64,000 nt of DNA from Xestospongia bergquistia. Taxonomy: Eukaryota; Porifera; Demospongiae; Haplosclerida; Petrosiidae. Location: NCBI GenBank assembly GCA_963965975.1, contig OZ014411.1, forward strand, positions 22,782,249 through 22,846,248, read 5' to 3'. Of the stretch, positions 3,950-61,374 are shown one piece after another. Below the pieces are notes generated by a model, which had not been told where the DNA came from, searched no databases, and was given only the letters and a program-made list of their open reading frames with translations. Numbering within the stretch: position 1 is the stretch's first letter; every line of letters starts with the position of its first letter. The position numbers and the translations under genes are program-made.

Positions 3950-6900
3950 TCACATAGATTTGCAAGACCTTTTTGTCTGACCAGGATCATCATTATCCTC
4001 TAAACTGTATAGGTAAATAAGTGAAGATATATATAAACACTGAAGGTATGCATATGTACACATTATACTAATAAATATGATTTACAATAATATATTTATA
4101 TATGTGTGTGTATATGCATGCATATGCGATCATCTAAAAAGTAATACCCTTATATACCTTTTAGCAGCTCGTTTGAACCCTAAAATTTGTAATTTTTCTT
4201 TCAGAGTGTCATTTGTAGCCTCAGGATTCTTCGCATGCCATTTCTTAAGTACCAAATATGCATGTGACTTGATACCAGTATATTGCTTCTTAATATCCCT
4301 CAGATCATCATTTGGAACTTCCAAACCACCACATAGATCTGCAAGATTTCTATTGATGTAACAACTACATCGAAGGAGTACATTGTCAGTCAGTAGGCTC
4401 TGTGCAAAATATGAAATATAACATTGAAAACATACAAAAACCTGTGTATCTGTTGGATCTTCTTGAGGTACTGGGTAGTATGCAGATGATGGCCTTGTTT
4501 GCTTTGTTAGTCTTTTCCTTGACATACCTTCTGGAGATGTTACCCTTCTTTTTTCACATACCTGTGTACAAATTAACTTCTAAATGATCTTGACAATGGG
4601 TTGTACCTCTTCTTCTCTCTGCTCTTTAATATAGGAAAATGTTTTTGAACGATTGTGAATCTGCAATTAGTAACTTATCAGTAATACCTATTACTAACAA
4701 ACTTACTTGCAGTGTTCCGGTCTCTTTCAGAGGGGCAGTAACACCAGATATCCTATATATAATAAAAGAAATTGTCATTAACAAAAAATTTAACTTTCTA
4801 AGCAAAGAAAGTGAATGTTATATTGAAATAGAAAATATACCTTTCAGCCAATTGACCAAGGCCAATCTCACTTAATGCTTTGACAAGGTCTTTTCTTTCA
4901 CCACATCTTCTGTCCCAGTCAAACAACAAATGAAGTACGGGATTATTACTTCGAGATGGGTCTTGTCTGTATGTTAATAATTTATGCAATATGCCTAACT
5001 TTGCTGCCAAGTCATCAGCTTTTTCTCCCACAGCTTGTGAGATATCATACATTTCATCTTGTGAAATTCTTTTAAAGAGCTGTTAAAATTATTAAATAAC
5101 TGATTTCTAGTTATTTATTTATGCACACTTACCATTTCAGGCTTTTTATTGTCCTTGAACCAATGACCTTCCTCGGGGGTAGGTCTTCTAAAGGCTTTGT
5201 TATTTGTGCAACATAATTGAAGATCACTTGTTTGATTCTTCAAAACATTCAAGTAGTGCAGCTGTTGACCTTGACAATCATCAGATAGACATACATACTG
5301 AAAGCATCTGGATATTTTCAAACTAGTTAACGACTTTATTAAGTATGTGCGTGCATAAAGAACATTATCTACAGTGCTTCCTGCTTCTTCAATGATTTGT
5401 AATAAGTTTTGACATGCTGTATTAAAAGGAGTAATTGATGAACTGGTGTTAGGAATGTACCGTAGAATTTCAACTTGGATGGCATAGTTGTGATCAGTGA
5501 AAATGACACAATCAATTGCTGGATCACCGAATTGAAAGGATACACGATTTCGATATATTCCACCTTCAAATGACAATGTGCAGTGTTGAGATTTAGCAAT
5601 GGTTGTGATGAAACGAGTAAAGAAGCCAGGAGGCACAAATTTTGTGCTAAAAGTGATGTGAAGGTATGTTGCTCGTTCGTAATAACCAGGTTCAGCTTGT
5701 AATTTCTCCTCTGAACATGACGGTAACATTGCTGGTATGAAGAACTGTTTCACATCAGCATAATGATATAAGTTAGTTGAAACCTCTGCTGCCAGGCAAA
5801 AGTGAAGTAATAGTTCCATGATTGCATCCGGTTCAAGATCACCATTGTTTTTCCATGCAGCTTTGTAGTGATGCTCTACAATCACTCCTTTCTCATAAAC
5901 TAGAGACCTCTTCAAGCTTGTTTCATTTTCATCACATCTGTCAAGTGTGAATACTTTACTCATGGTTTCAACAAACCATTTAGGGCTAATAATAACTTTC
6001 AAATGCAAACCTTTTATATCAGGGTAGAAAAGAAGGACCCCTAACTCATGGTAGAACAAAAGTGCTTTTGAGACATCTTCCAAAGGTATTTTGCATCTGA
6101 CACCAATGGCCTGAACCTCCTCAAGGGTCAGAACATTTGCTTTATGTACTTGGATAATTTTACGAAATAGAACCCAACTAACTGGGGTCTTAGCTATAAG
6201 CTTTTCAAATGTAAAATCATGAATTGCTTTTCTTATCAATTTAAATGATGGATCTTCATTGTCACCTTTCCCTGACGTGGTGTTATCAACAATGAAGGTG
6301 TCTATTATTAATTCTCCAAAAGCTTTCTTCTTGTATTCTTTTATTAATTTTTCTCTCACTTCTGTCTTCTTTTCATCTGGTTGTATTCGATCACCATGTG
6401 TACCAAGACAGAACATGCGAGGGTAATCAGAAATCGTGCCTGTATCTTCATCTTTTGCAACATGAGCATGGATATTAGCCATCCAATTAAGCATGAGGTT
6501 AAGTGTGCTTATGCTGCTCTGCTCCCCTGGAACCCGTCTACCTCCGAATTGATGTATCGAGTGCCATCTTTCTTGAAAATCTTTTGAAGCATCAAAGAGT
6601 AAAAGAAACATGGTACGTGATGTCAGAAAAGCTGGAAGTATTTCGAGAAAAACAGGCTGCCCTCCACAATCCCAAATATGTACAAATGGCTGAGGCTTGA
6701 AACTCATAATAACATCTTCAGAAAAGCTATTTGCACGCTGTATAGCTTCCGTGAGGACTTCATTGACTGTAATCTGTTCAACATCTCCAGTCTCATCTTC
6801 TAGTTGTGGTATAGATGAAGCCAATTCAGGTGCAGAAAATAGAGCTACAGCTCTTTTTGTACTAGGTAGCAAATTGAAGCTAGAAGCATTGCCATGAACA

Positions 6901-9900
6901 GCAGCAAGCAACTGAGCTAGCTCATTTATTTCATCATCACGCGTAACTTTCATCCATTTTTTGTTGCCATCAAATGATGAAGCCTGCCATTCGTGCTCAA
7001 ATGGACGAACTGACTCAACATCTGATATCATTGTGCTGTTAGTGTTTGGTTCCCATGGTAGCATCATCAATGAACGTTTAAAACTGGTTTTACCAACCCC
7101 AGCTGCACCCAATAACATAAGACGAGCATATGCAACATCTACCTCTGCTTTGGTTAGACATCTTTCAAATGCTTCTAAAAGACAAGGAAGCTAATAATAC
7201 TGATACAAATCCATTTCTAAAATAAAGTATTCATTCTACAAAATATTTTTCAAACACCTAATAATGACTATACATTACAATTATAATATAATAAATTGAA
7301 TATACGAATTAAAGCCATGTCCAACTTAATTAAAACTTAAACTAATATCTTGCTATGTCAACACTCTACAGAAGCCTCAGACGGACATTCCAATTCCTAT
7401 TTCCAATTTCAATTAAAAGGGGTTATACAGAGTTGGAATGTCCGTCCTCGACTTCCCTAAATAATAGGCCTACAATATACAACCAAAATCAGGGACCCAA
7501 CCCAACTGAAACATCTCACTGGCGCCTGATTCTAAGGACGGCTCGTGGTACTCGCGCTCTGTGTTTTATTAAGTAACAAGAAAAGCCTGGAATGAAGCAT
7601 ATGCCAAAAATAGAAATAGGAATAAAAAATTGAAATTCATTAACTGTGTCGTTAATTGGGATTTTTAAATGCGCCAACATTCGCGGAAGAAATAAGAAAT
7701 AGGAATTAGTATGTCTGTCTGCGGCTTCCGTAACACTCAGATCACCACTGTTGCCTAAAGCAGAATTCAAGTTTCAGGTCTTTATCCTGATAATTATGAA
7801 TAATAAGGTACATGTACATCTGTTGCATGACCAAGGACATGGGAAAGAATCAAAACATGGCATATTATTTTATGCATCTAATTAATTATTGATGAAGTGT
7901 AGTCATAAAAACTACAACCTGTCTAGAAAAAGTCTGGTCTTTTGCAGGGAGTGGATCCATACTTGTAAACCACAATGTGATATGGACTTTCTTAGATACA
8001 ACATTAAATGTAGGTCCATTTACTTAAATTGGTATATATTCACATAAAATGTTCTATGACATTTATAATGAAGGAATCTTCAGTTAAATCTTCAAAAATT
8101 GCATATATCAGTTTAGACTGTTTAGTCCTTGTGAATTTGTAGCAGTGTAACATGTTTGACTCTTTAAAATAGTTTTTAGCCTGTTGTCAGACTATGCAAA
8201 ATGCATGCAGGTTAGAGTAATGATCTTAAGAGGTCTAATCCCCTATCAGGACAAAGTAGCAGAGGGCTTAAGTGCCATATTGAACCTTCAACTATGCAAA
8301 TCCTCCCCCCAAAGGAGATGATGACACTGTCATCAGTACGTATATAGCACATGAATGTGTACTGGTCTTAGCATACATAAGAATCAGAGGAAAATGAATA
8401 AAAGCATCAGTGAATATTAAGGATTGATAACATGTTTGGTGCTCCTATGATAAATATACACAGCTATGTTACATCATTCCTTAAGCACATCCCATCTCAC
8501 TATTATCTATCATGTATGTATTTTATATATGCACTGTTAAATATGTTTAACAATGATACTTACCTCTTTTTTCTTTCACCTTAGTTTCCTAATATAGTAT
8601 AAATATTTGTATGCAAAACTATATACACTCTTACCTCCTAATTTGGTAGAAATAGTTCCAAAAATTAAAAAATAACAACAATAAAACAACTACTTGTTAT
8701 CTACTTACCACCTTTTTTGACAATCAAATATAATATTATATAGCATAAAAAAATAGAAAAAAATGACAATAAAATGTATATCAGGCAAAGTTCTCACCAA
8801 CTAGAGAACAAAACAAACAGGACATGATGAGACATTATTTATGAATTTGAATCATTTTAAAGGAAGTGTTAAAATTACATAGTACCCCGGTATATAAAAG
8901 TTATTTCTGTGACAGGTGCTTCTGCCTGTGTAGTCAGCATTTACTTGTCATTGTAATTAATCTTATACAAAATACTTGTAATGGTGTTTGTTTTATGACA
9001 TATATTTTGTGTGTAGTAGTATAATTTAGTGTTGTGACCATTTTGAGACAATCACTAAGCAAGAATGGTTAATCACTAGAATTACTATAAATACAGTCTT
9101 TGTATCTTAACACAAAACATCTAGTCATGCTTGTAATTTTTTCCTAACATGTATATTATATTTTTTAAATTATTTAAAACTTACTTCCTGTATATAGACA
9201 TGGCAAATGTGTCAGCAATGAGAACAGCCAAAATGAAAAAGTTAATAATTATAAATAAAATATTTAGACATACCAGCTGAAAAATTCATTGATGTAAAGT
9301 GTATAAAATAGATGAGGGAAAATTAATGTGAATAATGAGTAAAGATCAATTAAATTTAACTCACTTTCTAACATTGACGGAAATGAACGTGGAGTAAAGA
9401 AAATAACTTTTAAAAATATCACTAAAATTATAAATGTTACTTACCACCTATTATTATCATGTGCATGTTGAATATAAAAAGGTAAAAAATATATTGAAAG
9501 TAAAAAATAATATAACTTACCGGCTAGAGTGAAGAAGAGCAAGAACATTTAGAGAAGAGAAACAAATGGGATAAAATATTAGGGCATTCTATATATCATG
9601 ACTTACTCTTGTATGCTGCAATTAAGTATGAGTATAGTACATCAGCAGCCGAGTATATTGCAAAAACAAACATTGAGCAATTCAAAATACTAGTAAATTC
9701 ACTTACCCACTATATTCCACAACCAAATCAGCAGAAATCAGTAAAAACATAAGTCATAATAAACATACCTACTACAGTAATGTGTAACTTACATTCTGTT
9801 GTAGACCAGACTATTATCATATTTAACAAAACATATCAATGAAAGTGTGATAAAAGTTACACATTTTATGAATATTAAACTTACTTCCTACATAGTCACG

Positions 9901-11107
9901 ACAAGTTGTTGTAATTTGGACAGTAAATAATCACATATATAGGAAGAAAGTTTTTTTACGAATTATGAATTAAACCTTTAAAAAACATTTCTTAAACAAA
10001 AACATTGTTATTTTTAAACAGTACTTATCATGTATTTTTTATAATTAAAACTCTGTATACATTGTACATAGCTATTTTGTAAAGACTTTCAACTAAACTA
10101 TGATATACATAAAAAGTAATTATTATAAATGACACACCAATGTTCTACAACATGGCTGCAAAACTAGTTTATCAAATTTTTTAATAGGTTAATTTTTTGA
10201 ATGCAAAAATTACACATACATCATATATATGTCACTGTATAGGTTGATTTAATCAATATATTATGGTTATACATAGCAAATTATTTGATGCAAACTAAAA
10301 GTAAGCATCGTAGTGCGTGTTTTCATTCCTAACATTCTATATCAGATTGACTCTCTTCATTCCTAACATTTTAGACTGTCTAATATTCTATTTCATAGTA
10401 GTTTGTACAGCTGCATTAATTCTGCCATTGCATATGGATCTCGTGGTTGTTCTCTGATAATCCTCTTTTTCATCCCTTCACTCATTCGTTCGACCAATTG
10501 TTCAATAGCTACTTTTCGTCGTATCTGTTCCTCTCCCTCGTCGGGTGCCTCTGTACTTCTCGCTCCGTCACAAAATGAATTAAAACAGTATGATTTTACC
10601 TTCAGTTTGCATCAATTAATTTGCTACATATATGCAATCTGTATAACCATATATTGATTAAACAAAATAATCAACTTTTACAGTGCTATGTGCATGCCAC
10701 TGTGAATGTGGACATTTGCTGAGCTTGAAAATGATAGAAGTATCATTCTAAGAGGCTTTTTTTAAATCTAGAATATTTTATTGCAGTTGTAGCTAGTTAT
10801 ATCAATATCATGTTGTAATTTATATTATACAAAAAGGAGACATATCGTGTTTTCACATAGTTTTTAATTCAAGCCAAAAACCACAAAACAAGCTCAAACA
10901 AGGAAAATCTGTTTTAATCATTCAAAAAGAATAAATTGTAGGCCTAGTAAAGAATTTTGTACTCATTTCTTATAATTTAATTTTATATGTATTCTTTTTG
11001 TATTTATGGTCACAAATATCAAGTCTATTTGATTTTGTAATCTATTTCTACATTTAGTAACAGTTTTTCTATACTTTAAAAGAACTTACTTGGTTTTCAG
11101 TTGCCAT
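3950..11107 (-). CDS. Roc-COR GTPase with two death domains and CaaX tail (paralog 1)
   Basis: Deduced 20-exon gene, 942 aa. Exons, in transcription order: 11107-11090 (ATG, MATENQ), 3-nt exons at 9887, 9795, 9709, a 9-nt exon 9615-9607, 3-nt exons ending upstream at 9523, 9447, 9367, 9276, 9187, 8800, 8711, 8637, a 25-nt exon 8588-8564, then 7174-5133, 5079-4841, 4752-4707, 4561-4442, 4399-4158 and 4004-3950. Total 2829 nt, an exact multiple of three. The Roc domain has P-loop GAAGVGKTS, switch motif WDCGGQ and THGD in place of TKxD, as Roco proteins such as LRRK2 carry THxD. COR follows (PVSWVLF onwards), then a Cys-rich tail (CLSDDC, LCC). Death domain 1 is the 239-nt exon and death domain 2 the 242-nt exon. 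The protein ends SCKSM, a CaaX-like box. Roco proteins are GTP-binding signalling scaffolds; the partner is unknown. Confidence 0.85.
7367..7732. repeat. MITE with TACGGAAGCC-type terminal inverted repeats, in an intron
   Basis: The ends read TACAGAAGCCTCAGACGGAC and, reversed, TACGGAAGCCGCAGACAGAC. The element is 366 bp and flanked on both sides by ACACTC, a probable 6-bp target duplication. It lies in the 1389-nt intron between the 25-nt exon and the large Roc-COR exon. A related copy in opposite orientation is at 29471-29822. Confidence 0.75.
8564..9887 (-). other. Array of single-codon (3-nt) microexons, paralog 1
   Basis: Read on the minus strand, exons between AG and GT are: GAA 9887-9885 (E), AAT 9795-9793 (N), TGG 9709-9707 (W), CATACAAGA 9615-9607 (H-T-R), CCG 9523-9521 (P), GTG 9447-9445 (V), AAA 9367-9365 (K), CTG 9276-9274 (L), GAA 9187-9185 (E), TTG 8800-8798 (L), GTG 8711-8709 (V), GAG 8637-8635 (E), then a 25-nt exon 8588-8564 (E-T-K-V-K-E-K-R plus G). 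Donors are GTAAGT, GTATGT, GTGAGT, GTGAGA or GTAAGA. Introns are 46-91 nt except one of 384 nt. All boundaries are phase 0 until the 25-nt exon, which leaves one base that completes GAA with the next exon. Confidence 0.8.
10233..10685. repeat. CACTGTA...TACAGTG MITE in intron 1 of paralog 1
   Basis: The ends are CACTGTATAGGTTGATTTAA and, at the right, TTTTACAGTG, with sub-terminal 'ggttatac' and 'gtataacc' in inverted order. It shares internal sequence, including 'gttaggaatgaa' and 'gtcaatctga' when read in gene orientation, with the degenerate element at 22457-22661 in intron 1 of paralog 2. That suggests an insertion older than the gene duplication. A GC-richer coding-like segment sits inside. 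Confidence 0.6.
10393..10572 (-). pseudogene. Coding-like fragment inside a MITE, unrecognised
   Basis: On the minus strand a frame of about 59 codons stays open to TGA at 10395-10393. It is rich in charged residues (for example RRKVAIEQLVERMSEG and REQPRDPYAMAELMQLYKLL) and its base composition is clearly more GC-rich than the surrounding intron. There is no start codon or consensus acceptor directly in front. It is most simply a piece of a transposon or host gene carried by the element at 10233-10685; an alternative exon of the host gene cannot be excluded. No family recognised. Confidence 0.4.
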
Positions 11108-17862: not shown

Positions 17863-18345
17863 TAAGTTAAAGAACAAACACTCCTCAAGGCTGCAAATGG
17901 TGATGACTTCCAAAGCTGTATTGAAGAATTGATGAAATCATATTACAAAGATGATATCAACTTATCCGACTTGAATAGACATTTACTCTTACTTCCAGAT
18001 ATTATCAACAAACAACTTCCTCGAGTTAAAAAGGTAACATCAATTAATACCATTTGTGAAGCAATGAATACTAGTAATGCTTTTAAAGAAATGCTGCCGA
18101 CAGTTCATCGACTTCTGCGTCTGTACCTAACATTGCCTATAACATCAGCAACATCTGAACGAACATTTTCTGCTCTGCGATGGCTCATGACTTACACACG
18201 CTTTAAGATGACTGAAAAAACATTGAACAATTGCTTCCTGCTGCATGTCCACAAAGATTTAACAGATGATTTAGACTTAGCATCCATTGCACAAGAATTT
18301 ATTCATGCAACAGATGAACGGGCTAAATACTTTGGTAATTTTTAG
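17863..18345 (+). pseudogene. hAT transposase, C-terminal dimerisation region only
   Basis: The frame ending at TAG 18343-18345 encodes about 150 residues. The diagnostic part is 'LPITSATSERTFSALRWL', the conserved hAT C-terminal dimerisation motif, followed by 'RFKMTEKTLNNCFLLHVHKD'. hAT transposases cut and paste DNA and usually run beyond 600 residues with an N-terminal BED zinc finger and a DDE-type catalytic core. None of that is present, so the fragment cannot be active. Residues just upstream (AANGDDFQSCIEELM) stay in frame, so the true exon began before 17929. The flanks belong to the element at 17355-18440. Confidence 0.85.
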
Positions 18346-20000: not shown

Positions 20001-23000
20001 ATGGCAGCTGAAGAACAAGTAAGTAAAATTGTTTAAAATTAGAGCTATGTTTGAAAATATGAATTTCAGTTATTAATTCCTGATGGTGTATTTCCCATAT
20101 CTGCCAGAGCCAATTTATGCATGTTTGAGAACCAAATGTGATAAACATGGAAGCTTGTACCAGTAACATTTATGTTGTTATATATGTAGTATACTAATAT
20201 AATATATGGGTCACTGACTATGTCTGTATGCAGAGGAGTATTCTTCCAGAAGTATGATAGTCTACTGAGCTAGTCCCTCCTTGATTTAATAAGCTGATGA
20301 CAGAGAAGGGTCTAGCTTGCTGCTCCATTGAAATTTGTGGAGTGGGACAGTACTACATACTATGGTAATGGGCAGTACTACAGTTGTCATAGTTGCTATG
20401 ACCAATTTTATAGTAGCTACTAACTACTACTAATCGCAAATACATGTAGAATTTAATCTTGGCATAATTTTTAACAGATCTACTAATAAGATTCTAGGCA
20501 TACATTGAAACTACTAAGATGGACAGGGTGGCATTGCAGCTTGAAAAACAGCAAAAACAAAAAAGGTTTTGATTGACATGCCCGTTGTTATAACAATTCA
20601 TGAGTACACTGACTAATCACTTTTTAGTACTGTCCCAAATTGTTACATTCCAACGGGACAAAATTTTTTCTAGATCCTGCTTGGTCATATTATCAAATAG
20701 CTTAACTTTTGATATTATAAATTATTGAAAGCAAAAGTCTGGCAAGAATTTACTTTCATATTATTATCACTGGAATAAGGGTGTCTACCTGATTGACTTT
20801 TACATTCATTTTTAGTTTCTCTTCAAGCTTCTTTTAAAAGTAGTTTCATACATGACTTTTAATTTTTGGATCCCAAAAATCAAATCACATGAAAGGTTCA
20901 CACGCTATATCTGTGACTTTTAAATGGATTGATTGAAAGTAAAGTCACATTTGTGGTGTCTTAATTATGCCAACTATATGTAGTAGGGAAACCACTTTAC
21001 ATCATTAATTGCATGAATGGCTTCAGTTTAATAATTGAAGCCACTAAATGTAGTTGTAGCTGTTTTAAAGATTGTTAATTGTAAACAATTCCATGATTGG
21101 GTTCATTTTAATAATTGAAGACAGTGAGTGTAGTTGTGACTGTTTTATGTAATTTAGCTGACCTGTTGTCCTTGTTACTGTCAGGTATGCACAACTGTCC
21201 TATAATAATTTTGTCCTACAAGGTATATTGTTTTGGAATATCAAAGCTAAAACTAAAGTATCTTTTAATGAGTGAAAAAATGTTTTAGTATACTAACTAA
21301 AACTAGACTAAAATTGATTAATTTAACAGTGCTTAAACTAAAGTATAATGTCATTTTGGTCATTGATTGTTATGTTTATTGGTTTTGCCCATAAACCTAG
21401 AAACATATCAAGGCTCGCTTTTAAAAAAAAAGTTCATTTGTACCTGCCACTAGCTGTAGCCGTATGTAATTACATGAAGCACCATGATATAAGAAATGGA
21501 ATATTTTTTCTTTTTAAATATGGCTCATATAATAGCAAAATCTAAGGTGCTGGGTTGAAAGAATATATTGAAGAGTTGAAGTTATATTTGATGTTTCTGT
21601 ATATGAACTAGCTTTCATTATGACAAATAATTATATACAGACATAAAACATTAGTTAAGTTACTTAAAGTGGACAAATTTAACAATGACTAATCCCAACT
21701 TGGAGTACCTGTTCCTTTGAAATAATTTCACTTAAAGAAAAACTAAAAGAAACAACTGAAACTAAAGCTAGAACTAAAATGTTTTACTAAAATATATTAA
21801 ATAATATGTCAGCGGTTAAACAATGCAGTTAAATTTGATTTATCTCTCTTGAAAGTCGTATTCAGCATTATATTAAGGTGATGAAAATAGAAATAGCCCA
21901 TTATAGGCACAAGTAGCTTGTCAGAATCATCTGGCATGCATAACATGTCAGTCAGAAAAATAAGCTACATCACTTAACTGCTGCTACATATAGCAAATGA
22001 TGAATTCTAACTGCAATCACTATGATAATCATAATGATAGAAGATTCTCTCTAGATTGCTTTTTACCTATATTTTTATCATTCTATAACTATACTCTTCC
22101 ACAGACACTGATGATAAGTATGCAATCTTTATAGTTATAGTCAATGTATCACCATAAGTAATTATAGGATGAATGTTTTTCAATTATGATGTAGTTTTTT
22201 GTACTAATAATGCTTACTAGAATTATTGGCTAGCAAAAAGTTCAACTAACACCTTTGAAAAAAATATTAATTATGAAATGAATAACTATTAAAATGTTTA
22301 TAATTATAAAATTAGCCACAAAAGAAAAAGGTGCGTTATAACTTATTGAAAAAGCAATAGTTGTTAAACAAATTAAAACTTTTTTTCTTTGTAGAATTAC
22401 AAGTGTTCTGCGTAAATACCATTCACTTTTACTAAATCTGGTATAAATAAACAAATTGGTTGATTTAACCAATAAATGGTTTACAAATTGCATATGACAT
22501 CATACTGTTCATTCCGTTCCAGACACTTTAGTCAATCTGAAAGTACGTTAGGAATGAAATCAATATAATAGTTACTTTCATAAAAAATCAAATAATTTTC
22601 TACATATATGTAACCAGTATAACCATACATTGAATAAATCAAACAAACAATTTTATAGTAAACTAATTAAGTAAAAGATACATGTTCATGTACACCATTC
22701 ACTTTTATTAAATCTTGTAAAAGTGAATTGTGTACATTACTTTTTATTTTTGTGATCTCAAATGTACAATACTTATTAAATTTAATATAATGTACAACCA
22801 TTTCTTTTTCTATATCACCTGATTATGTCAATACCTACATGATATAATAGTGGGTAAGTATAATTTCCATATCGTTCCTAACTACATCTTTTTTTATATA
22901 TTGTAATTTGGTCTGCTTCAGAAAGTAAGTTTGTATTGTATTTGGCATTGAAAAATTCCTATATAACCTCTTTCTTTTTCTTTCCAATTATTTATTTGCT

Positions 23001-26000
23001 AATATAGCGGGTAAGTCAGAATCGTAATGCCTCTTTCTGTTACATTTTCTTTTTGTTTCTGTACTGACTCAATCATACAAAATGCAATACAAAGATGGTA
23101 AGTCTTAATACAATTATGCCCAAACTTTTTTTTATTCTTTATAATTACATGATTGCTCTGGTATTGCTCATCATATTAGCCTGTAAGTTTATAACATATT
23201 TATAATAATGATTCTATTTTCTTATTTTCTTTTTTACTGTATACGACTTCATAATGGCAGGTGGTAAGTAATATCATATTACTAACTGATATTTTTTTAT
23301 TTTGTAAACTTTAATCCCGCATTAACAAATTTAACAACAAACTAGAAAGTAAGCGTAACTTTATTGTCAATAATAATTACAATTCTATATTGTATATCTT
23401 GGCTACTATGAACATTCCTTTAGCTGGTATGTTAATTATTATTGTATTCAATGTTTAATCTTTTTTTTTTTAATTTTCGACATTGTTTGGCTGTTATCAT
23501 CACATATTTTCAGGAAGTAAGTTTTAAGTAATTTTGTGAAATCATAAAAATAATGAAACTGTCTTGTTTCATGTAGTTGGTGAGTTTTTTCAAGTTTGTG
23601 ATAATAGTTCTTTTATCTTCTTTTTACCCACTATAATCAATGAAACTAATAGGCAGTAAGATTAAATTAATTTTAAGTTTTTCTTATATAAGTTATCTTT
23701 TTTAGGAGGTTAGTTGGTTTATAGTTTGAATGTTCAAATTTAATATATAACTTTGTTATAGCAAGCTAAGCAGAAAGAAAAAAGAAGTGAGCTACCAGTA
23801 TATGAATTGTTTATGATGTTCTATAATTATATATCTGTTAATTAAAGCTAACTATAAAATAATGTTTTCAAGGCATATTGTTTTGTATCAGTAATTATAA
23901 TTATCATATTATTTTGTAGAAGCGTTTGAAAAAGCTCTCTCAGAAGGAGAAGTTGATGTAGCATACGCTCGTATTATGCTATTAGGTACAGGTGGAGTTG
24001 GAAAGACAAGTTTTAAACGTTCTTTGATGAAGTTACCCTGGCAACCACACACAACTAGTACAATAATATCTGATGTTGAGGCAATTCGTCCATTTGGTTA
24101 CGAGTGGCAGACTTCATCTTGTGATGAAAATGAAAAGTGGAGAAAGGTTACACGAGAAGATGAAATGAATGAACTAGCTCAGTTACTTGCTGCAGTTCAT
24201 GGCAATGTCCCTATGTTTCATTCCTTGCCCAGCACGATGAGGGCTGTAGCTCTGTTCTCTGCACCTGATCTGCCTCTAACTCCAACTAAACAACAACAAG
24301 CCAAAGTTAAAGCAGTTGTAGAACAGATAACAGTCAATGAAGTCCTCACTGAAGCCATAGAGCGTGCAAATGACATGTCAACGTCTGACATAATGAATTT
24401 AAAGCCTCAACCATTTCTTCATATTTGGGATTGTGGAGGGCAACCAGTTTTTCTTGAGATTCTTCCTGCTTTTCTTACATCACGTACAATGTTTCTTCTA
24501 CTTTTCGACGCTTCAAAAGATTTACGAGAAAAGTGGTACACAACACAGCATTTTCGAGGTCACCAGGTGACAGGAGAAATAAGTAATATGAGCACACTTG
24601 CCCTAATGCTCAACTGGATGTCTAATATTCATGCTCATCTTGCACAACATGAAGACATGGGTGGTATCTGTGACTATCCACGTATGATATGTCTTGGTAC
24701 ACATGGTGACAAGTTAACTCCAGCAAAAAAAGTGGAAATTAAAGAGCAGCTTACAAGTGAATATAAATTTAAAGCATTTGCTGAGCTAATTGTAGATACT
24801 TTTATTGTTGATAACACAACATCTGGTTCTGTCGAAAATGAGGATCCTTCAATTAGCTTTGTAAGAAAAGCCATTCGTGAATTTACATTCAACAAGCTTA
24901 TAGTTCAGACTCCAGTCAGTTGGGTTCTGTTCCGAAAAATTATACAAGTGTTAAAAGCTAATGTTGTCACTCTTGAGGAAGCTCAAGCCATCGGTAACAC
25001 ATGCAAGATACCTCCTGATGAAGTCCCAAAAGTCCTAATGTTCTACCATGAGCTAGGAGTCCTACTATTTTATCCTCATATTAAAGGATTGCAATCCAAA
25101 GTAATTATTAGTCCTAAATGGTTTGTAGAAACAATGGGCAAAGTGTTTACACTTGAAGGTAGAGAAGAACTTCAAAGTAACTTAATGTGGACACTTTTGC
25201 GTGAAAAAGGACTTCTAATACGAAGATATTATATGGCTGTATGGAAAAATGATAGTGATCTCGAACCAGATGCAATTATGGAACTTTTAATTCATTTTCG
25301 TCTAGCAGCAGAAGTTGTTACTGATCAGTATCATTTTCCTCAGGCTAAACAATTTTTTCTTCCTGCTGCATTACCTTCTTTTTCTGGTGAAGTTAATAAA
25401 GTTGAGTCTGGTTTTCTTTGTCGAGCAGCATTTCTTCACATCACTTTTAGTACCAAATTTGTACCTCCTGGTTTCTTCACTCGTTTTGTTACCGTTATGG
25501 CTCAATCACATTGCTGCCACTTGTACTTTGATGATGGAATATATCGAAACCGTGTCACTTTCAAATTTGGTGACCCAGCCATTAATCAAGTTATTCTTAC
25601 TGATCTTAACTATGCTATTCAAATTGACATTTTACGATATGTCCCAAACTCCTCAGCTACACCACCTTTTAATAAAGCTTGTCACAAATTACTAGATGTT
25701 TTAGAAGATTGTGGAAACAAAGTTGATAAAGTTCTAAGTACGCATACTTACTACAGTAGCCAAACTAAATTAGGAAGTTTGAAAGAAAACTTCACAATAT
25801 CAAGAAATTTTCAATATGTTTGTTTTTCTGACAACTGTCGGTTTGAAGAACTACATTATTTAATTGTTGTAGAGGAACAGACAGTTGATCTCCTACTGTG
25901 CTGTGAAAAAAGCAAATCATATAGAAAGCCTACTCATGAAGAATGTTTCTGGTTTAAAGAAGAAATAAAACACAGAACAGTAGGTTAAAATTACCTTTTT

Positions 26001-27251
26001 AGAAATTTAGTTATTTTAACAGCTAACTAAGAAAATTTCACAGTCTGAAATGCTAGAGATATCAAATGAAGTGGGAATAAAAGCTGATCAGTTGGCAGCA
26101 AAATTGGAGAGGCTAGACAAATTAAAAATCATTCAACAAGAGCCGTCACAACGTAATAATCCTGTACTTTATTTACTTCATGATTGGGAAAAAGGAGGTG
26201 GTGAGCGCCATGAGCTCGTGAAAGTTTTAAAAGATATTGGTTTAAGCCATCTTGCTAAAAAGTATATGGAAATCATACATGTATTACTCTTATGAGATTC
26301 TATAGGATATCTGGTCACTGTGCTTTGATGGATAAGCAAAGAACAACACAAGAAGTAAGACTTATATAGTCTAAGTTTAAGTGTAATTTGTATGATAGAC
26401 CAGATCAGAATTGTCTTCCAGCATTTCTTATATAAGTCATCGTCAACATTATGATGAAGAGGTAAAGAAATCTACACCCAACAAATTCGATAGTTTCCTC
26501 TTTTTACTTAGGTTACTCGTAGAAGAGGGTTAACATCTCCACCTGATATTAACATTTTGCCTCGAAAAAGTGTAAAGTCATCTAGCTATCAGCTGCTACC
26601 TCAAGATGAACCAATAACTGTTGCTTTTGATTCTCCAAGTGTGGAAGATCCAACTACATTTGATGAACCAGCCAGTTCTATAACTGAGAAGACTCCAGTT
26701 TTGGTACATAACACTAGCTTTAACATATATAGTTATAAGATTTACTTGTTCAATAGCAATGCCCACTTACTAACGATGACCTTCTTCAATGTAGTCGTTA
26801 CATCAAAAGAAATCTTGCAGATCTATGTGGTGGTTTGGAAATTTCTAATGATGACTTGAGAAATATTCAGAAAGATTTTACTGGTATCAAGTCTCATGCA
26901 TACTTTGTGCTAAAGAAATGGGTTGAAAAGAATCCTGAGGCTACAAAGCACACTCTACAAGCTAAATTACAAATTTTAGGGTTCACAAAAGCTGCTAAAA
27001 GGTAATACAACAAACATGTGATATGCTATAAAGCATGGAATTTTGGAGAAAAATAATGTAGTGACTTACCAAAATTTTATCCTCCAAAATATTTATTAGA
27101 GGTGTTGTAGTAGGTGGAAAAAATCATCTTAAAAGTATATTTTGTCCAAATCTTTTTTATATCTATTTACTATTATTTTCATAAATTTTAATCCTTTAGT
27201 TTAGAAGGCATTGAACAAAATGAAAGAGAAAGAAGTTGCATTCCTATGTGA
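20001..27251 (+). CDS. Roc-COR GTPase with two death domains and CaaX tail (paralog 2)
   Basis: Deduced 20-exon gene, 971 aa. Exons: 20001-20018 (ATG, MAAEEQ); 3-nt exons starting at 22851, 22922, 23008, 23095, 23180, 23261, 23346, 23424, 23514, 23577, 23653 and 23706; 23762-23786 (25 nt); 23920-25979; 26023-26261; 26306-26354; 26512-26703; 26757-27001; 27200-27251. The sum, 2916 nt, is an exact multiple of three. Roc: GTGGVGKTS P-loop, WDCGGQ, GTHGDK. COR begins at PVSWVLF; a Cys-rich end carries CFSDNC and LLCC. Death domain 1 lies at about residues 714-792 and death domain 2 at about 873-954. The C-terminus is SCIPM, a CaaX box of the type usually farnesylated when X is Met. Intron 1 is 2.8 kb and holds an old MITE. 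The nearest relatives by architecture are Roco proteins (DAPK1, LRRK2, MFHAS1). Lipidation is inference. Confidence 0.87.
22457..22661. repeat. Degenerate CACTG-type MITE in intron 1 of paralog 2
   Basis: It has 'ttggttgatttaaccaataa' at the left and 'gtataaccatacattgaat' at the right in inverted order. The middle, 'gtcaatctga...gttaggaatgaa', matches the element in intron 1 of paralog 1 in the same orientation relative to transcription. The outer CACTG ends have decayed. Confidence 0.5.
22851..23786 (+). other. Array of twelve single-codon (3-nt) microexons, paralog 2
   Basis: Exons between AG and GT: TGG 22851 (W), AAA 22922 (K), CGG 23008 (R), ATG 23095 (M), CCT 23180 (P), GTG 23261 (V), AAA 23346 (K), CTG 23424 (L), GAA 23514 (E), TTG 23577 (L), GCA 23653 (A), GAG 23706 (E), then the 25-nt exon 23762-23786 (Q-A-K-Q-K-E-K-R plus A). 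Donors: GTAAGT six times, then GTAAGC, GTATGT, GTAAGT, GTGAGT, GTAAGA and GTTAGT. Intervening introns are 50-87 nt with T-rich 3' ends. All are in phase 0, so skipping any subset would keep the frame. Confidence 0.85.
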
Positions 27252-32080: not shown

Positions 32081-35000
32081 ATGGCAGTAAAAGAAGTAAG
32101 TGTTAAACATGAAATATAACATGAATGATTACTAGTTATTTCATAATGTATCATTGAGTATATTTATTACTCGCAAAATATTTTTTTTATTTTATGGCTT
32201 TAGAAGTAGTTAACTCATATATATGTGTGTGTGTCTGTCTGTCTGTCTGTAATTGTTTGTATCACTTCAATGAGACTGACATTAAGAATTTGGTATAATA
32301 ATTTTTTTTTCCTACAAAATGAATAATGATGACATACTCCATTTCCTGCCATGTACAGTGGATGTCACAGCCGGTAAGTTGTATCATTGTTTGTTGTATT
32401 TATTACTTTTATCGCTGAATCTTTGATTTGAATCGGCACTTAATATTAGGTGGTAAGTCATGATAACTGTTATGCTTTGTATGTCTATATTCATTTTATG
32501 TATAAACATGAATTATCTGTCATAATGAAATAAAATTAGAAAGTAAGTCCCAGTCCAAGGTTTTCTTTAAATATTGTTTTCTTTTTATATATTCTTTTCT
32601 GCAGCTGGTATGTTCATATATCAATTATATATGTATCTTTTACTCTGAATTTCTCCCTTACTCATTACTATTTTATATCTTCAACTTTCATATGTACACA
32701 TTAAAGGAAGTGAGTATAACTCTGTATTTGTTAGAAAATAATTTATATTAGCATATTTTTAACTGTAAAGACATTAAATCATTAGGTAACTGTATAGCAA
32801 GAAGTATTTGGAGGTTGAAATTATTATAATTATGCCTTGAAATTACTATATTGCAGCTTTTTTTTAATTGGACAATTTTAAATACCTTTTGGTAATCATA
32901 ATCCCTATTTTCATTAAGTCTAATGTCTTTTTATGGTGATAACGTTTATAAGAAATTTTAAATAATTTTTATAAGAAATTTTTAGAATATATATTATTCC
33001 ATTACACAAAATATTACAATTATAATTCTTTTACCTTATACTTTGTATCTCTACTCTTTCCTAGTTGGTGAGTTGATGTTCTGTGTAGTTGATGTTTTTG
33101 GATTATCACATTTTTTTACCTTTTATGTGACATGGATGATTGTTAAACAGGCTGTAAGTTAATTTCTATTTTTTTTATTTTGTGTAACTAATCTTTCAAT
33201 ATGTGTTGACATTGCTATTATTCTAAACAGGAGGTCAGTTAATTGTTCTTAAATTTGTGTAGTAATTTATATATTCAAATATTGCAGGAGACTAAAATAA
33301 GAGAGAGAAGAGGTAATTAATTTTATTGATTTATTAATCTCAAGTTGTACTATATTTATTAATTACTTAATGTCGAAATGCATGTTATACTAAATACATA
33401 TTTTTGATCAATTATAATTAATTGATAAAGTAATTACTGTATATTGGTATGGTAATTATATCTTTTGTAACTTTTTATAGAGGCATATGAGAGGGCTTTG
33501 TCAAAAGGAGAAGTTGATGTTGCATACGCTCGTGTTATGATACTAGGTACTGGAGGAGTTGGAAAGACTAGTTTTAAGCGTTCATTGATGATGTTACCTT
33601 GGGAACCAAACACCAACAGTACAATTATATCAGATGTTGAGACCATTCGCCCATTTGGTTACGAATGGCAAACATCGTTGTTTGAAGGAGAAGGAATGTG
33701 GAGGAAAGTTACACGAGATGATGAGTTAAACGAGCTAGCTCAATTACTTGCTGCAGTCCATGGCAGTGCTCCAAGTTTCAATTTGTTGCCAGACACTATG
33801 AGAGCTGTATCTCTATTCTCCACTCCAAATTTAACACCAACTATGTCTCTGGTAGGATCTGATGTTGCAGATGTTGAACAGCCTACAATCAATGAATGGC
33901 TTTCTGAAGCTATAAAACGTGCAGATCATTTCTCTCCAACTGATATCATAAATTCAAAGCCACAGCCTTTTTTACATATTTGGGATTGTGGAGGACAGCC
34001 AGTTTTCCTTGAGATTCTTCCTGCTTTTCTTACATCACGCACTATGTTTCTTCTACTTTTTGATGCTTCACAAGATTTTCAAAAACAGTGGCGCTCAGTG
34101 AAGCATATACAGGGGAGAAAAATTCCAGGTGAAGTGAGCAATGTTAGCACACTTAACCTTATGCTCAACTGGATGGCTAACATCCATGCCCATCTAATAC
34201 AAAATGAAAAAGGTGCTATCTGTGAATATCCTCGTATTCTATGCATTGGCACACATGGTGACAAATTGCAAGCAGAAGCAAGAAAAGATGAAATTAAAGA
34301 GCAACTAAAAGAGAAGTGCGAATCAAAAGCATTTGGTGAGTTAATAGTAGACACCTTCATTGTTGATAACACAACTGCTGGCAAGAAGGAACATGAAGAT
34401 CCATCCTTTCACCAAGTTCGAAAGTTAATTCACGACTTTACATCCAAGAAGCTTTTAGTTAAGACTCCCGTCAGTTGGGTTCTCTTTCGGAAAATTATTC
34501 AATTATCGAAAGCAAATGTCCTTACCATTGAGCAAGCTCAAGCCATTGGTGTTACATGCAAGATATCACACGAAGATGTCCCTAAAGTTCTATTGTTTTA
34601 CCACCAGCTGGGTGTCTTACTATTTTATCCTCATATAGAAGGTTTAAAAAATAAAATCATTATTAGTCCAAAATGGTTTGTGGAAATTATGGGGAAGGTG
34701 TTTACACTTGAGGGAGGTGATGAGAATGATATGAGCCTGATGAAGAAACTGTTGCATGAACAAGGAATTCTTGTTCGACATTACTACATGGCTGCTTGGG
34801 AAAACAATGGTGATCTTGAACCAGATGCCATAATGGAACTTTTAGTTCACTTTTGCTTGGCATCAGAGGTTTCAACTGAATTATACAGTTATACTAATGT
34901 GAGACAGTTCTTCTTACCAGCAGTGTTACCTTCATGCTCACATAATGCAATACAACCTCAACCTGGTTATCATCATCGAGCTACATACCTTCACATCACT

Positions 35001-36803
35001 TTTAGCACTAAATTTGTACCTCCTGGTTTTTTTACTCGTTTCGTAACAACCATCGCAAAATCTCAACATTGCACCTTGTTATTTGAAGATAAAGTATATC
35101 GAAATTGTATAACCTTTCGATTCGGTGTTCCACCAATTGATCATGTCATTCTAACAGATCTTGACAATGCCATTCAAGTTGAAATTCTTCGATATATTCC
35201 TGACACCAGCTCATCAATGACTCCTTTTCGTACAAATTGTAGAGCTCTTCTTGAAGTTCTTGAAAAAGCAGGGAATACAGTGGATACAGTTCTTTACACA
35301 CCCACATACTTTAAGTCATCATCAAAGTTAGAAATATCTAAAAAATTCCAATTTGTGTGTTCGTCTGATGATTGTCAATGTCATCAATTACACTATTTAA
35401 AAGTAGGGAAGGGTCAAACAACTGATCTTCCATTATGCTGTGAAAAGAACAAAAATTATAGAAGACCTACTCGTGAAGAAGGTTTTTGGTTTAAAGAAGA
35501 AAGATCAGAAGTTGTAAGTTTTACAAAGTGGTATTGTTATTTTATTACTTATTAATTGATATAGATTTCTAAAAGAATTTCACAAAGTGAAATGTATGAT
35601 ATTTCACAAGAAGTTGGAGAGAGAGCTGATGACTTAGCTGCAAAGTTAGGCATGTTAGATAAGTTAAGAGAGTATCGATGTCAGCAACCACAGAGTCTTA
35701 ATCCACTGCTTAACTTACTGTTAGACTGGGACAAAGGATGCGGTGAAAGGCATCAACTTGTTAAAGCTTTGAATGAGATTAATCTTACTCGTCTGGCTAA
35801 AACGTGAGAAAAGATGTGGTCTATATAGTATGAGTCTGTACGACACAGTCTCAGTATGTACAACTGGTTTTTTGTGTCTTTTTAATACTTTCTTAGTTAA
35901 TTTGTATTGTTTTAGTTTACTAATATAAGATTAAAGCATAGTATAACCATAACGGAAAATAAACAGATGTCTAGTTGCTTTCTGTTACAAAATATTCCAT
36001 TTTCTTAGGATACTTTTTAAATTTATATTTTAAAATAATAACACATCTATGATGTTATCACATACATTTTTCATTTCCCTTATTCTATACTTTATTTTTT
36101 AGAGTAGCTGGTAATTCAAATTCAGCTGATAGTGAAGTGTTAATCATGCAAACAAATGTATGATATTTTACTCACCTATTAATGCAGTTGTTATTTTTAT
36201 TAATTATAGGACCCATCTGGAGCAACAGTTTCTTTTCATAATGTTAATGTGACTGTAAGTTATTATTAACGTTGTCTTTTTTTAATTGTTTAATAGCAGG
36301 TTGGAGAAGACATACCAACGGAATCAAGTCCAGCCATTAATTCAGATCCCCAAGCTATTGTGATAACTGAAAATCAGGTATGTGTTACAATTTAAGTAAC
36401 TTAAATTGAGTGCATATATAGTGTCTTTTGACTAATGATGATATTATAAAGTGCAGTCGTCATATTAATGAAAATCTTGTTGAGCTGGCTGGCTATTTGA
36501 ATGTTACTAATGCTGAACTTCAGAATATACAGGAATCATTTAGTGGTATTAACGTACATGCCTATCAAGTGTTGTGCTTGTGGCACGAAAGAAATCGAGA
36601 GGCTACTAAACAGAATCTACAGTTTACTTTACAGCAATTAAATTTCATTGAAGCTTCAAGAAGGCACGTTACATAATAATACTACCCAGTAAACTATTTG
36701 TTATTATTTACTCTTTTTGCATTTCAGTTTAGAAACAACAATAGACAACCCTCCAAGTTCAGATAATAACAGGGGTAATGATCGAAAGTGTTGCTTTCTT
36801 TAA
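32081..36803 (+). CDS. Roc-COR GTPase with two death domains and CaaX tail (paralog 3)
   Basis: Deduced 17-exon gene, 947 aa. Exons: 32081-32095 (ATG, MAVKE); 32359-32373 (W-M-S-Q-P); 3-nt exons at 32450, 32540, 32605, 32707, 33065, 33151 and 33231; 33288-33312; 33481-35513; 35565-35803; 36103-36157; 36210-36254; 36300-36377; 36422-36663; 36728-36803. The total is 2844 nt, a multiple of three. Roc spans from the P-loop GTGGVGKTS (residues 48-56) through WDCGGQ (about 195) and GTHGDK (about 282). COR starts at PVSWVLF (about 355), with CSSDDC and LCC near its end. Death domain 1 is at about 704-783 and death domain 2 at about 843-923. The last residues, KCCFL, form a CaaX box with X = Leu, typical of geranylgeranylation. 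The intron 36664-36727 begins with GC. Tail-to-tail with the ANK-death gene. Confidence 0.87.
32359..33312 (+). other. Microexon array, paralog 3 (one 15-nt and seven 3-nt exons)
   Basis: Exons: TGGATGTCACAGCCG 32359-32373 (W-M-S-Q-P), GTG 32450 (V), AAA 32540 (K), CTG 32605 (L), GAA 32707 (E), TTG 33065 (L), GCT 33151 (A), GAG 33231 (E), then 25 nt at 33288-33312 (E-T-K-I-R-E-R-R plus G). Donors: GTAAGT, GTAAGT, GTAAGT, GTATGT, GTGAGT, GTGAGT, GTAAGT and GTCAGT. Introns are 54-99 nt except 355 nt between E and L, which is the same place where paralog 1 has its 384-nt intron. Confidence 0.85.
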
Positions 36804-46151: not shown

Positions 46152-46948
46152 CTAGATAGTAAGGGCTAGATGCTGAAGTCACCTCTTTAACAAAGAGTCA
46201 TTCTAAGGAATCAGATAGTCCACTTCAACAAAGCGACCTGTTAAAACCATTCTTGTTGGTTAGTAACCGGGGCCTCAATTATGCCTACCATAAATACTAT
46301 GGAGACCAAGAAAATGAAGAAAAGCACAAGCATACTAAAACAGAACAATACCAATTAATATAATTTGTGGATTAAAATTCTCTCCGCCTTTACCAGGGCA
46401 TTATTACCAAGCTTTTGAAAACATCAATAACAGAACCTTCAACTAAGATAATACTACAATGTCGTCGTCGTTTCTGGCAGGATGAAGGAATTCAAGGTGG
46501 TTTCAGCAAAACAAACATAGTTATTAGTCAACTTTATTATCCAAGTAACCCCGAGTTTAAAATACTAAATATTGAAAGGGGTATTTTGATATGCTACACA
46601 TGGAAGAGTGAGGCTCTTCTCCTTGGGTCACTCTCACCACAGAAACCAATGACAGAAGCTGTTGAAGAGGTTTCAGAGATTCATCCTCAAATTACCAAAG
46701 AGTTTGAAGTAGGAGTGGTTCAATCATGGTATGATGAACCATCAGCTCAAGGAGCTTTTTGTCTTCTCAACCCAGAGCAATGTATTGCTGTGAGACATCT
46801 AATGATGTCTCCATATCAATTCATTTACTTCTGTGGGGAAACAATTTCTTATGCAAATAGATGGATTCAAGGAGCTCTTGAATCTGGTCTGAGAGTTGCT
46901 TATGAGTTATTTGTGCGTAATGAAAAACTTCATTCTGGCACAACCTAA
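46152..46948 (+). pseudogene. Flavin amine oxidase pseudogene with internal deletion
   Basis: The left part (46152-46350) matches the N-terminal exon of the amine oxidases at 50185 and 62267 from 'atgctgaagtcac' through 'cataaatactatggag', without a start codon. It then jumps at about 46350 directly to the C-terminal exon ('accaattaatataatttgtgg'), losing the FAD-binding GxGxxG region, exons 2 and 3 and half of exon 4. A further frameshift lies at about 46425, where 'atcaataacagaacc' replaces 'atcaatatagaacc'. The remaining frame to TAA at 46946-46948 still encodes about 175 residues ending [20 protein letters not shown]. Without the N-terminal FAD fold it cannot be an active oxidase. Confidence 0.9.
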
Positions 46949-49900: not shown

Positions 49901-50085
49901 CTTTAAGCCTTTGCATCTGTGAACAAGTGCTCCCTAGCTAAATGACAAAATTATGAATGCTCTAGTCTAGTTCCTAACCATCCATTTGCCTATAGATACA
50001 TAAAAGAGAGAACTAACATAATATATTATGTGTTTACATTAAATTCATCAATACTATGCATATTGTGTGTGCTTGTGCTTCGTGT
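46949..50085. other. Spacer in the amine oxidase array, repeat-rich
   Basis: It contains two copies of 'gctgactatctagaactact' (about 47081 and 47271), a run of 'caaactgatgctatt' four times (48093-48145), and a long simple region (47870-48600) of variants of 'taactataactaactaaa' and 'acataactatagctaattat'. The frame at 49499-49765 recurs at 55826-56050 because the whole upstream region is duplicated; it is not a credible gene. Confidence 0.6.
47870..48600. repeat. Low-complexity CTAACTATA-type tandem repeat
   Basis: Irregular repeats of 'aactaaaac' pass into a unit 'actatacataactatagcta' of about 40 bases (48365-48560). Confidence 0.7.
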
Positions 50086-50102
50086 TTTGCGCATGTGCAA
50101 AT
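50086..50102. promoter_or_regulatory. Near-palindromic NRF1-like promoter motif, oxidase A
   Basis: TTTGCGCATGTGCAAAT lies about 83 bases before the ATG and is kept unchanged before oxidase B (56371-56387). GCGCATGTGC resembles the NRF1 consensus (YGCGCAYGCGCR). The function is inferred from motif and position. Confidence 0.45.
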
Positions 50103-50184
50103 ACCGCTCAGCTGATGAGATCACTAATTAAAAGAAGTTGGAAGTACTGCAAAGCTCATTTGACCTGATCTTATGTAGCGAAAG

Positions 50185-52512: not shown

Positions 52513-52618
52513 ACAAATTGAGCTGAATGGATAACTTTGAAGCAATTATATTTGCATGTGAGATTTTAATAACATAAAAACTTAGCTTGCTATTAAAAAA
52601 ATCAAATTTTTCATTTTG

Positions 52619-52624
52619 AATAAA
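52619..52624 (+). terminator. Polyadenylation signal AATAAA, oxidase A
   Basis: Located 107 bases after the stop; the equivalent signal of copy B is at 59041-59046. Confidence 0.55.
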
Positions 52625-52626
52625 GT

Positions 52627-56370: not shown

Positions 56371-56387
56371 TTTGCGCATGTGCAAAT
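56371..56387. promoter_or_regulatory. Near-palindromic NRF1-like promoter motif, oxidase B
   Basis: Identical to the 17-base motif before oxidase A and at the same relative position, about 83 bases before the ATG. Confidence 0.45.
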
Positions 56388-56469
56388 ACCGCCCAGCTGA
56401 TGAGATCACTAATTAAAAGAAGTTGGAAGTACTGCAAAGCTCATTTGATCTGATCGTGTGTAGCGAAAG

Positions 56470-61316: not shown

Positions 61317-61374
<58 letters not shown>

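Follow-up and report, generated by a model that had tools for sequence, protein, structure and literature searches.

The 64,000-nucleotide stretch of the genome of the sponge Xestospongia bergquistia analyzed here (assembly GCA_963965975.1, contig OZ014411.1, positions 22,782,249 to 22,846,248; hereafter the window) holds three Roc-COR genes, designated G1, G2 and G3, and each of these has an ATG exon, an array of sites of the form AG|NNN|GT and a 25-nt exon in equivalent positions. Judging from the sequence, these sites are very probably genuine coding exons, each a single codon long (apart from one predicted G1 exon of three codons), that are spliced into the N-terminal segment of the Roc-COR protein. 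The best reading would place the segment encoded by the array between the protein start and the Roc-COR module, and would also make such a segment part of at least one non-Roc gene.

Anatomy of the arrays in the window genes

The twelve AG|NNN|GT sites of G2 on which the original prediction was based were all present in the claimed order (TGG AAA CGG ATG CCT GTG AAA CTG GAA TTG GCA GAG), and the count of eight strict sites (AGNNNGTRAGT) among them was reproduced. Their spacing, given earlier as 50-87 nt, measured 53-90 nt. The predicted reading frame was unbroken from exon 1 through the twelve codons and the 25-nt exon into Roc, as had been claimed (MAAEEQ-WKRMPVKLELAE-QAKQKEKR KAFEKALSEGEVDVAYARIMLLGTGGVGKTS...), and its first stop was the end of the Roc frame. 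A good donor had been ascribed to every G2 site, which held for the eight of twelve that fit GTRAGT but not for the other four (GTAAGC, GTATGT, GTAAGA and GTTAGT). Similarly, the sites were indeed preceded by T-rich sequence, but this was not specific to the acceptors as the array introns were T-rich all along. No tandem repeat with a period of 50-90 nt was found in the G2 array, and the short direct repeats within it were mostly the splice sites, the longest being a 24-nt pair (83%).

The other two genes had the same organization (Table 1). The N-terminal reads predicted for G3 (MAVKE-PVKLELAE-ETKIRERR), G1 (MATENQ-ENW-HTR-PVKLELVE-ETKVKEKR) and G2 (MAAEEQ-WKRM-PVKLELAE-QAKQKEKR) continued in frame from the array into Roc in all three cases, and the downstream proteins of all three passed the Pfam cut-offs for Roc (PF08477) and COR (PF16095), in that order. 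By eye, the predicted N-termini (MAAEEQWKRMP, MAVKEPVKLE and MATENQENWHT) were charged in appearance. Together the three arrays have 31 predicted exons of 3 nt and one of 9 nt, all in phase 0 and all multiples of three. At the 31 sites the donor was GTAAGT in 18 and GTGAGT in 4, and the acceptor was AAG in three, including the ATG at 23095 in G2, which is a weaker point.

The 9-nt HTR exon of G1 (9607-9615, minus strand) occupies the place of the three 3-nt exons K, R and M in G2 (22922-23097, plus strand), for which the splitting or fusion of exons is a possible explanation. A Death domain following Roc-COR, which is a trait of some animal ROCO members, had a candidate in G2 only, in frames downstream of the Roc-COR exon; the two matches to Pfam PF00531 (E-values 5e-5 and 8e-5) were both barely past the cut-off.

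Table 1. Predicted features of the three Roc-COR genes, in window coordinates.
Gene	Feature	Position	Strand	Predicted reading or content	Donor	First bases of exons
G2	Exon 1	20001..20018	+	ATGGCAGCTGAAGAACAA = MAAEEQ	GTAAGT	
G2	Array, twelve 3-nt exons	22851..23708	+	W K R M P V K L E L A E		22851, 22922, 23008, 23095, 23180, 23261, 23346, 23424, 23514, 23577, 23653, 23706
G2	25-nt exon	23762..23786	+	QAKQKEKR + 1 nt	GTGAGC	
G2	Roc-COR exon	23920..25988	+	Predicted open frame, stop codon 25986-25988		
G2	Region 3' of Roc-COR exon	26041..27002	+	Two Death-domain matches, separate open frames		
G3	Exon 1	32081..32095	+	MAVKE	GTAAGT	
G3	Array, eight 3-nt exons	32371..33233	+	P V K L E L A E		32371, 32450, 32540, 32605, 32707, 33065, 33151, 33231
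G3	25-nt exon	33288..33312	+	ETKIRERR + 1 nt	GTAATT	
G3	Roc-COR exon	33481..35555	+			
G1	Exon 1	11090..11107	-	MATENQ	GTAAGT	
G1	Array	8635..9887	-	3-nt exons E N W, 9-nt exon HTR, 3-nt exons P V K L E L V E		3-nt exons: 9887, 9795, 9709, 9523, 9447, 9367, 9276, 9187, 8800, 8711, 8637
G1	9-nt exon of array	9615-9607	-	HTR		
G1	25-nt exon	8564..8588	-	ETKVKEKR + 1 nt	GTAAGT	
G1	Roc-COR exon	5115..7174	-			

Controls for chance and exon length

The strict pattern AGNNNGTRAGT occurred 25 times in the window, compared to a mean of 3.83 and a maximum of 9 in 100 dinucleotide shuffles, and 22 of the 25 sites were inside the three arrays, one array per Roc-COR gene. A version of the pattern with four bases in place of three occurred four times (4.16 expected). 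A chance origin of the sites was ruled out by these shuffles together with the four-base control. In addition, we scanned the upstream DNA of 30 Roc paralogs (1.5 kb each), together with an array on C15 (described below), for YAG-N_k-GTAAGT with k from 0 to 30. There were 78 cases at k=3 and a total of 6 over the other 30 values of k, with no case in that DNA of a YAG joined directly to GTAAGT (k=0). These 78 cases are not independent, since 42 of them came from the C15 array, in which many units are copies.

Codons are conserved between diverged introns

The Roc exons of G1, G2 and G3 shared 66-68% protein identity and their synonymous divergence (dS) was 0.94-1.25. Against this background, eight codons, P-V-K-L-E-L-(A/V)-E, were shared in the same order by all three genes with 90.3% nucleotide identity over 24 bases, and only two of the eight varied (CCT/CCG, which is silent, and GCA/GCT/GTG). 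When the codon order was shuffled, the mean identity was 39.1% and none of 20,000 shuffles reached the observed value. Only codons present in all three genes entered this count, so that W K R M of G2 and E N W HTR of G1 were omitted; W occurs in both G1 and G2. The introns between equivalent codons were compared in 21 pairs after their splice sites had been trimmed, and in no pair did the score exceed the best of 100 letter shuffles, although there was one tie. The trinucleotides and their splice signals have thus been kept, whereas the sequence between them has largely been lost. A recent segmental duplication that carried the introns along was considered unlikely, based on the introns not outscoring the best shuffles (G1-G2 being above the shuffle mean in six of seven comparisons) and the dS of about 1.

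The conservation bears on two other accounts of the arrays. The first is that the sites are remnants of ancestral exons that are now decoys or are skipped, for instance because all are removed with a single long intron that separates exon 1 and the 25-nt exon. The frame would survive the skipping of every array exon, because each is predicted to be a multiple of three; however, relics would be expected to drift at a dS of about 1, and eight codons with near-consensus donors have been kept in three genes, which leaves this account very improbable. The second is that the sites are real exons that are mostly alternatively included, any subset of them being in frame, with many isoforms and a combinatorial peptide code as the outcome. 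The phase of the window exons, all of which could be dropped in whole codons, is consistent with it, as are the brown algal ROCO genes, which do likewise with whole leucine-rich repeat (LRR) exons and for which splice variants are reported (PMC11378527). Two known 3-bp exons, in RPS24 (PMC12686416) and Drosophila hth (PMC7392893), are also alternative. Against this, both the order and the content of the shared codons have been conserved in three paralogs, suggesting fixed inclusion there, and the donors are mostly strong with no hint of regulation. We regard predominantly alternative inclusion as rather unlikely.

Genome-wide distribution of the arrays

The original prediction treated the G2 array as one run of twelve. 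The run itself was borne out, but not as an isolated case, as it is a small instance of a far larger pattern in the genome. Single strict AGNNNGTRAGT sites numbered 17,235 genome-wide, compared to 12,138 in a backwards control. For triples of sites (GTAAGTN{105,135}AGNNNGTAAGTN{105,135}AGNNNGTAAGT, a spacing of 116-146 nt) the numbers were 2,177 and 88, respectively, the former including whatever share of satellites lies outside the 100 places listed. Those first 100 places were all in C1:9.61-9.87 Mb and on one strand, and the unit length there was mostly about 136 nt. Triples with the middle codon TAT numbered 37 (control 10) and were all on C1, C10 and C15. Patterns derived from the C10 and C1 units were found at 28 and 114 places, respectively, with none in either control. 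A 31-kb stretch, C1:9612273-9643171, contains array units that are about 136 nt long, lie on a single strand and have mostly TTT, GAA and CGA as codons.

The array on C15 has 48 candidate codons at 1075080-1082545 (L039, L071), with further ones upstream, and leads into non-Roc exons. A domain of about 149 residues encoded behind it (L071:2109-2555) matched the genome in at least 150 places; it resembled ZU5 in appearance, but Pfam gave no match and the assignment was dropped. Death domains were also sought behind the C1 arrays, by eye and with 150 of 983 candidates scored, and none lay on the right side and strand near 9.6-9.9, 13.1-13.7 or 15.5-15.8 Mb. Weaker cases on C1 were a same-strand Death domain 17 kb downstream of the array at C1:12381153 and another 25 kb downstream of the array at C1:12898792.

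A protein search of the genome, in which 65 of 399 candidates were scored, identified at least 70 Roc-like places, of which about 30 were close to full length. Strict sites (YAG-NNN-GTAAGT) were present within 1.5 kb upstream of 10 of 27 further Roc exons (L044-L070), 26 sites in all, and on C10 there were also arrays more than 1.5 kb upstream of Roc exons. All 42 C10 array places (28 and 14 by two patterns) had a Roc or Roc-fragment exon on their own strand no more than 12 kb downstream, compared to 1.3% of random C10 places, in a test that used 36 of the 70 Roc-like places and ignored the clustering of places. Five Roc genes on C1 (L064-L067 and L069) had same-strand array places upstream when compared by eye.

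When 30 paralogs were scanned for the 25-nt exon, 13 had candidates, namely G2, G3, nine C10-type paralogs, L054 and L062. The candidates in L054 and L062 look like chance matches, and the G1 exon, which the scan did not pick up, was located by hand. The nine C10-type paralogs shared a common 25-nt exon pattern (e.g., AKRISTME + G) and a Roc junction phase like that of the window genes, and none of the nine exons had a GTAAGT donor. Strict array sites were present in the 1.5 kb upstream in six of these nine paralogs and absent in three.

Evidence that the trinucleotides are codons

Stop codons were avoided in the middle position of the triples. Only four triples had TAA or TGA there (24 in the control), three of them on C3 in or beside a satellite and one on C4, whereas 162 had AAT or GAT, which are composed of the same bases (none in the control); TAG was outside this comparison. 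Among the first 100 strict AGNNNGTRAGT sites in the genome the corresponding numbers were 7 and 6, a significant difference from the triples (Fisher p 5e-7). In addition, none of 112 array codons was a stop, compared to 8 of the 100 in the same first-100 set (p 0.002). These 112 comprised 84 codons at array sites in the upstream DNA and 28 from C10, with four sites in both, and excluded the 100 listed C1 units. Together with the paralogs, the frame and the three-base spacing, this avoidance of TAA and TGA supports the earlier interpretation of the trinucleotides as single-codon exons, insofar as sequence can.

These data also bear on whether the arrays might be a repeated motif of another kind, such as a satellite, a binding site or a decoy for U1, that merely resembles back-to-back splice sites. 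The C15 units are tandem repeats and those of C1 and C10 look tandem, and satellites matching a short-spacing pattern were seen on C3, C8, C12, C13 and C14 (by eye, with C13 checked). Such a motif would not be expected to avoid TAA and TGA or to keep its codon order between introns at best-shuffle level, the G2 array lacks a 50-90 nt tandem period, the frames of G1, G2 and G3 fit at either end, and every C10 place is oriented towards Roc. We therefore give this explanation little credence, and the sites are better read as coding exons.

The C15 array provided a separate view of the trinucleotides. Among 17 aligned units of 131 nt, the columns with the highest entropy were codon positions 1 and 2, at 1.78 and 1.71 bits against a column mean of 0.22, and the AG before the codon and the GTAAGT after it were invariant. 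Differences per site were 0.079 in the intron and 0.515 in the codon; in a core set of 13 units, from which four diverged ones had been removed, they were 0.043 and 0.534. Of 78 core pairs, 18 had three or fewer intron differences, and the codon differed in 12 of these 18. Codon position 3 was less variable than positions 1 and 2 both on C10 (0.91 bits) and on C15 (0.32), compared to 1.75 bits in the first-100 strict-site set. Such a pattern would be expected under selection for amino-acid change, but the base before the donor is also constrained by splicing.

The codons of the tandem arrays could instead be variable because a low-complexity linker is under relaxed constraint, and not through selection for difference. 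In favor of this, their composition is gene-specific and simple, being rich in P, S, K and R on C15 and, for 82 of the 100 C1 units listed, consisting of F, E or R. However, the C15 codon varied 6.5-fold (17 units) to 12.5-fold (13 core units) more per site than its own intron, a disparity that neutral drift with homogenization does not give, and the codon positions that vary more are 1 and 2, although position 3 is also under splicing constraint. Relaxed constraint is to us a somewhat doubtful explanation.

Observations that weigh against single-codon exons

A number of observations weigh against the reading of the sites as single-codon exons or narrow its reach. Within the window, the HTR exon predicted in the G1 array is of 9 nt and not 3 nt, and the T-rich tract is not confined to the acceptor side: over the 31 sites, the fraction of T was 0.51-0.54 from -60 to -25, 0.40 from -25 to -3 and 0.48-0.52 downstream. 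Constraint on the splice sites could partly account for the conservation of codons among G1-G3; it would not alone have preserved their identity and order to the extent seen. In 13 of the 21 comparisons, including six of seven for G1-G2, the introns scored above the mean of their shuffles, and a slight similarity of introns may remain, especially between those two genes. Among the paralogs, 17 of the 27 further Roc exons had no strict array site within 1.5 kb upstream, and 17 of the 30 scanned had no candidate for the 25-nt exon. On C1, there was one TGA among the 100 listed units, at C1:9612273, and the arrays near 9.6-9.9, 12-13.7 and 15.5-15.8 Mb were without an assigned gene.

Two genome-wide counts point the same way. 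Triples with a short spacing (61-91 nt) numbered 57, fewer than the 166 in the control, and comprised seven matches in the window genes, one on C15 and 49 that were satellite-like, on C3, C8, C12, C13 and C14. With 49 of 57 matches satellite-like and the higher count in the control, the short-spacing pattern was rejected as a general detector of arrays in the genome. Pairs with exons of 4-12 nt numbered 30,015 genome-wide, compared to 3,760 in the control. The first 100 places listed for this pattern reach C1:18.35 Mb, the bulk lying elsewhere, and that bulk may be satellite DNA. The exclusivity of three-base exons is thus shown only for the window, the upstream DNA examined and the C15 array. 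A small tandem cluster at C1:18352288-18354841 was present among the 100 listed pair places.

A possible mechanism and role

The anatomy of the arrays, their conservation in paralogs, the frame of the window genes, the avoidance of stops, the spacing in the DNA examined and the extent of the pattern in the genome were observed directly, and it is from these that we infer the splicing itself, the order of its steps and its function. Each unit would consist of a short intron ending in AG, one codon and a near-consensus GTAAGT donor. Removal of the upstream intron would add the codon to the growing exon and expose a fresh 5' splice site, codon|GTAAGT, and this regenerated donor would be used for the next step, so that the mRNA would be lengthened codon by codon, as in recursive splicing but with three bases carried over at every step. 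A 3-nt exon is too small for factors to occupy both of its splice sites simultaneously. Splicing is likely to be stepwise for that reason, and the donors of the window arrays, mostly GTAAGT, agree with this, whereas the 25-nt exons of the nine C10-type paralogs all have other donors.

With one codon per step, units could be duplicated, lost or skipped without a shift in frame. In the large tandem arrays, the intron units would be copied and kept alike as the codon varies from unit to unit, as measured on C15 and seen by eye on C10 and C1. The gain or loss of units and changes to their codons would then edit the protein residue by residue, in frame. The array segment is probably fast-evolving and related to recognition, or else a linker. 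A recognition role is suggested by analogy with the brown algal ROCO genes, and a variable linker is the plain alternative. We also entertain, as a tentative and distinctly speculative possibility, that this animal genome has on the order of two thousand single-codon exons, in many places as tandem units of steady intron and diversified codon, ahead of Roc-COR and in other gene families, and that a recognition segment is thereby edited, and perhaps combinatorially spliced, one amino acid at a time in innate immunity or self-recognition.

Relation to known exon systems

Three-base exons are at the limit of what the spliceosome is presumed to recognize, and to our knowledge the known cases are isolated. 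No paper describing runs of single-codon exons was among those listed in the literature searched, whose coverage mostly did not extend to subscription papers. The closest parallels are of several kinds. The micro-exon genes (MEGs) of schistosomes have exons of 3-81 bp, with 10-20 very short exons per gene, and vary through splicing and duplication (PMC10526429). They resemble the window genes in having many short exons that keep the frame, as predicted here; they differ in their mixed exon sizes, their introns of 100 bp to almost 5 kb and their secreted products, whereas in the window genes 31 of 32 predicted array exons are of 3 nt, the introns are mostly about 50-150 nt and the product is a Roc-COR protein.

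The ROCO genes of brown algae have tandem in-phase exons of 72 bp, each encoding one LRR, which are under diversifying selection and subject to exon shuffling (PMC11378527). The GTPase family is the same and the tandem series of in-phase exons likewise precedes Roc. However, the algal exon is a 72-bp LRR exon and the exon here a single codon, with array exons of 3 nt in place of one LRR per exon, and it is the intron that forms the steady part of the repeat in the tandem arrays.

Isolated exons of 3 nt or 1 nt are described in RPS24 (PMC12686416), Drosophila hth (PMC7392893), APC11 (PMC4674806) and among plant microexons (PMC8831610). In RPS24 the 3-bp exon is one of three consecutive microexons, the others being of 18 and 22 bp (PMC12686416), and a rice gene has two adjacent microexons of 5 and 12 nt (PMC8831610). 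These tiny exons show that the spliceosome can include such sizes; they are isolated or in short mixed runs, in contrast to the one-codon runs here. The ratchet points of Drosophila recursive splicing, in which a juxtaposed acceptor and donor allow one splice to regenerate the next donor (PMC8605326), are similar to the array sites in having acceptor and donor side by side and in the regeneration of the donor proposed here. In Drosophila the apparent exon is of zero nucleotides and the introns are long, whereas here three coding bases lie between the sites and the introns are short.

If the arrays are spliced as proposed, they would open several questions to experiment, namely how U1 and U2 factors cope with an acceptor and a donor three bases from each other, whether a splicing ratchet can advance by one codon per step, and how proteins can gain, lose and change single residues through the copying of introns. 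The one-codon-per-exon layout could allow a protein to be edited in evolution by single amino acids. The position ahead of Roc-COR, like that of the shuffled LRR exons of brown algae, suggests by analogy that an animal may possess a diversity system. Standard gene prediction and RNA-seq mapping are likely to be blind to exons of one codon.

Other features of the window

Several open frames at 46376-62713 of the window matched flavin amine oxidase (Pfam Amino_oxidase), two of which were very similar frames of 393 residues. In addition, the C-terminal dimerization region of a hAT transposase was identified at 17866-18345.

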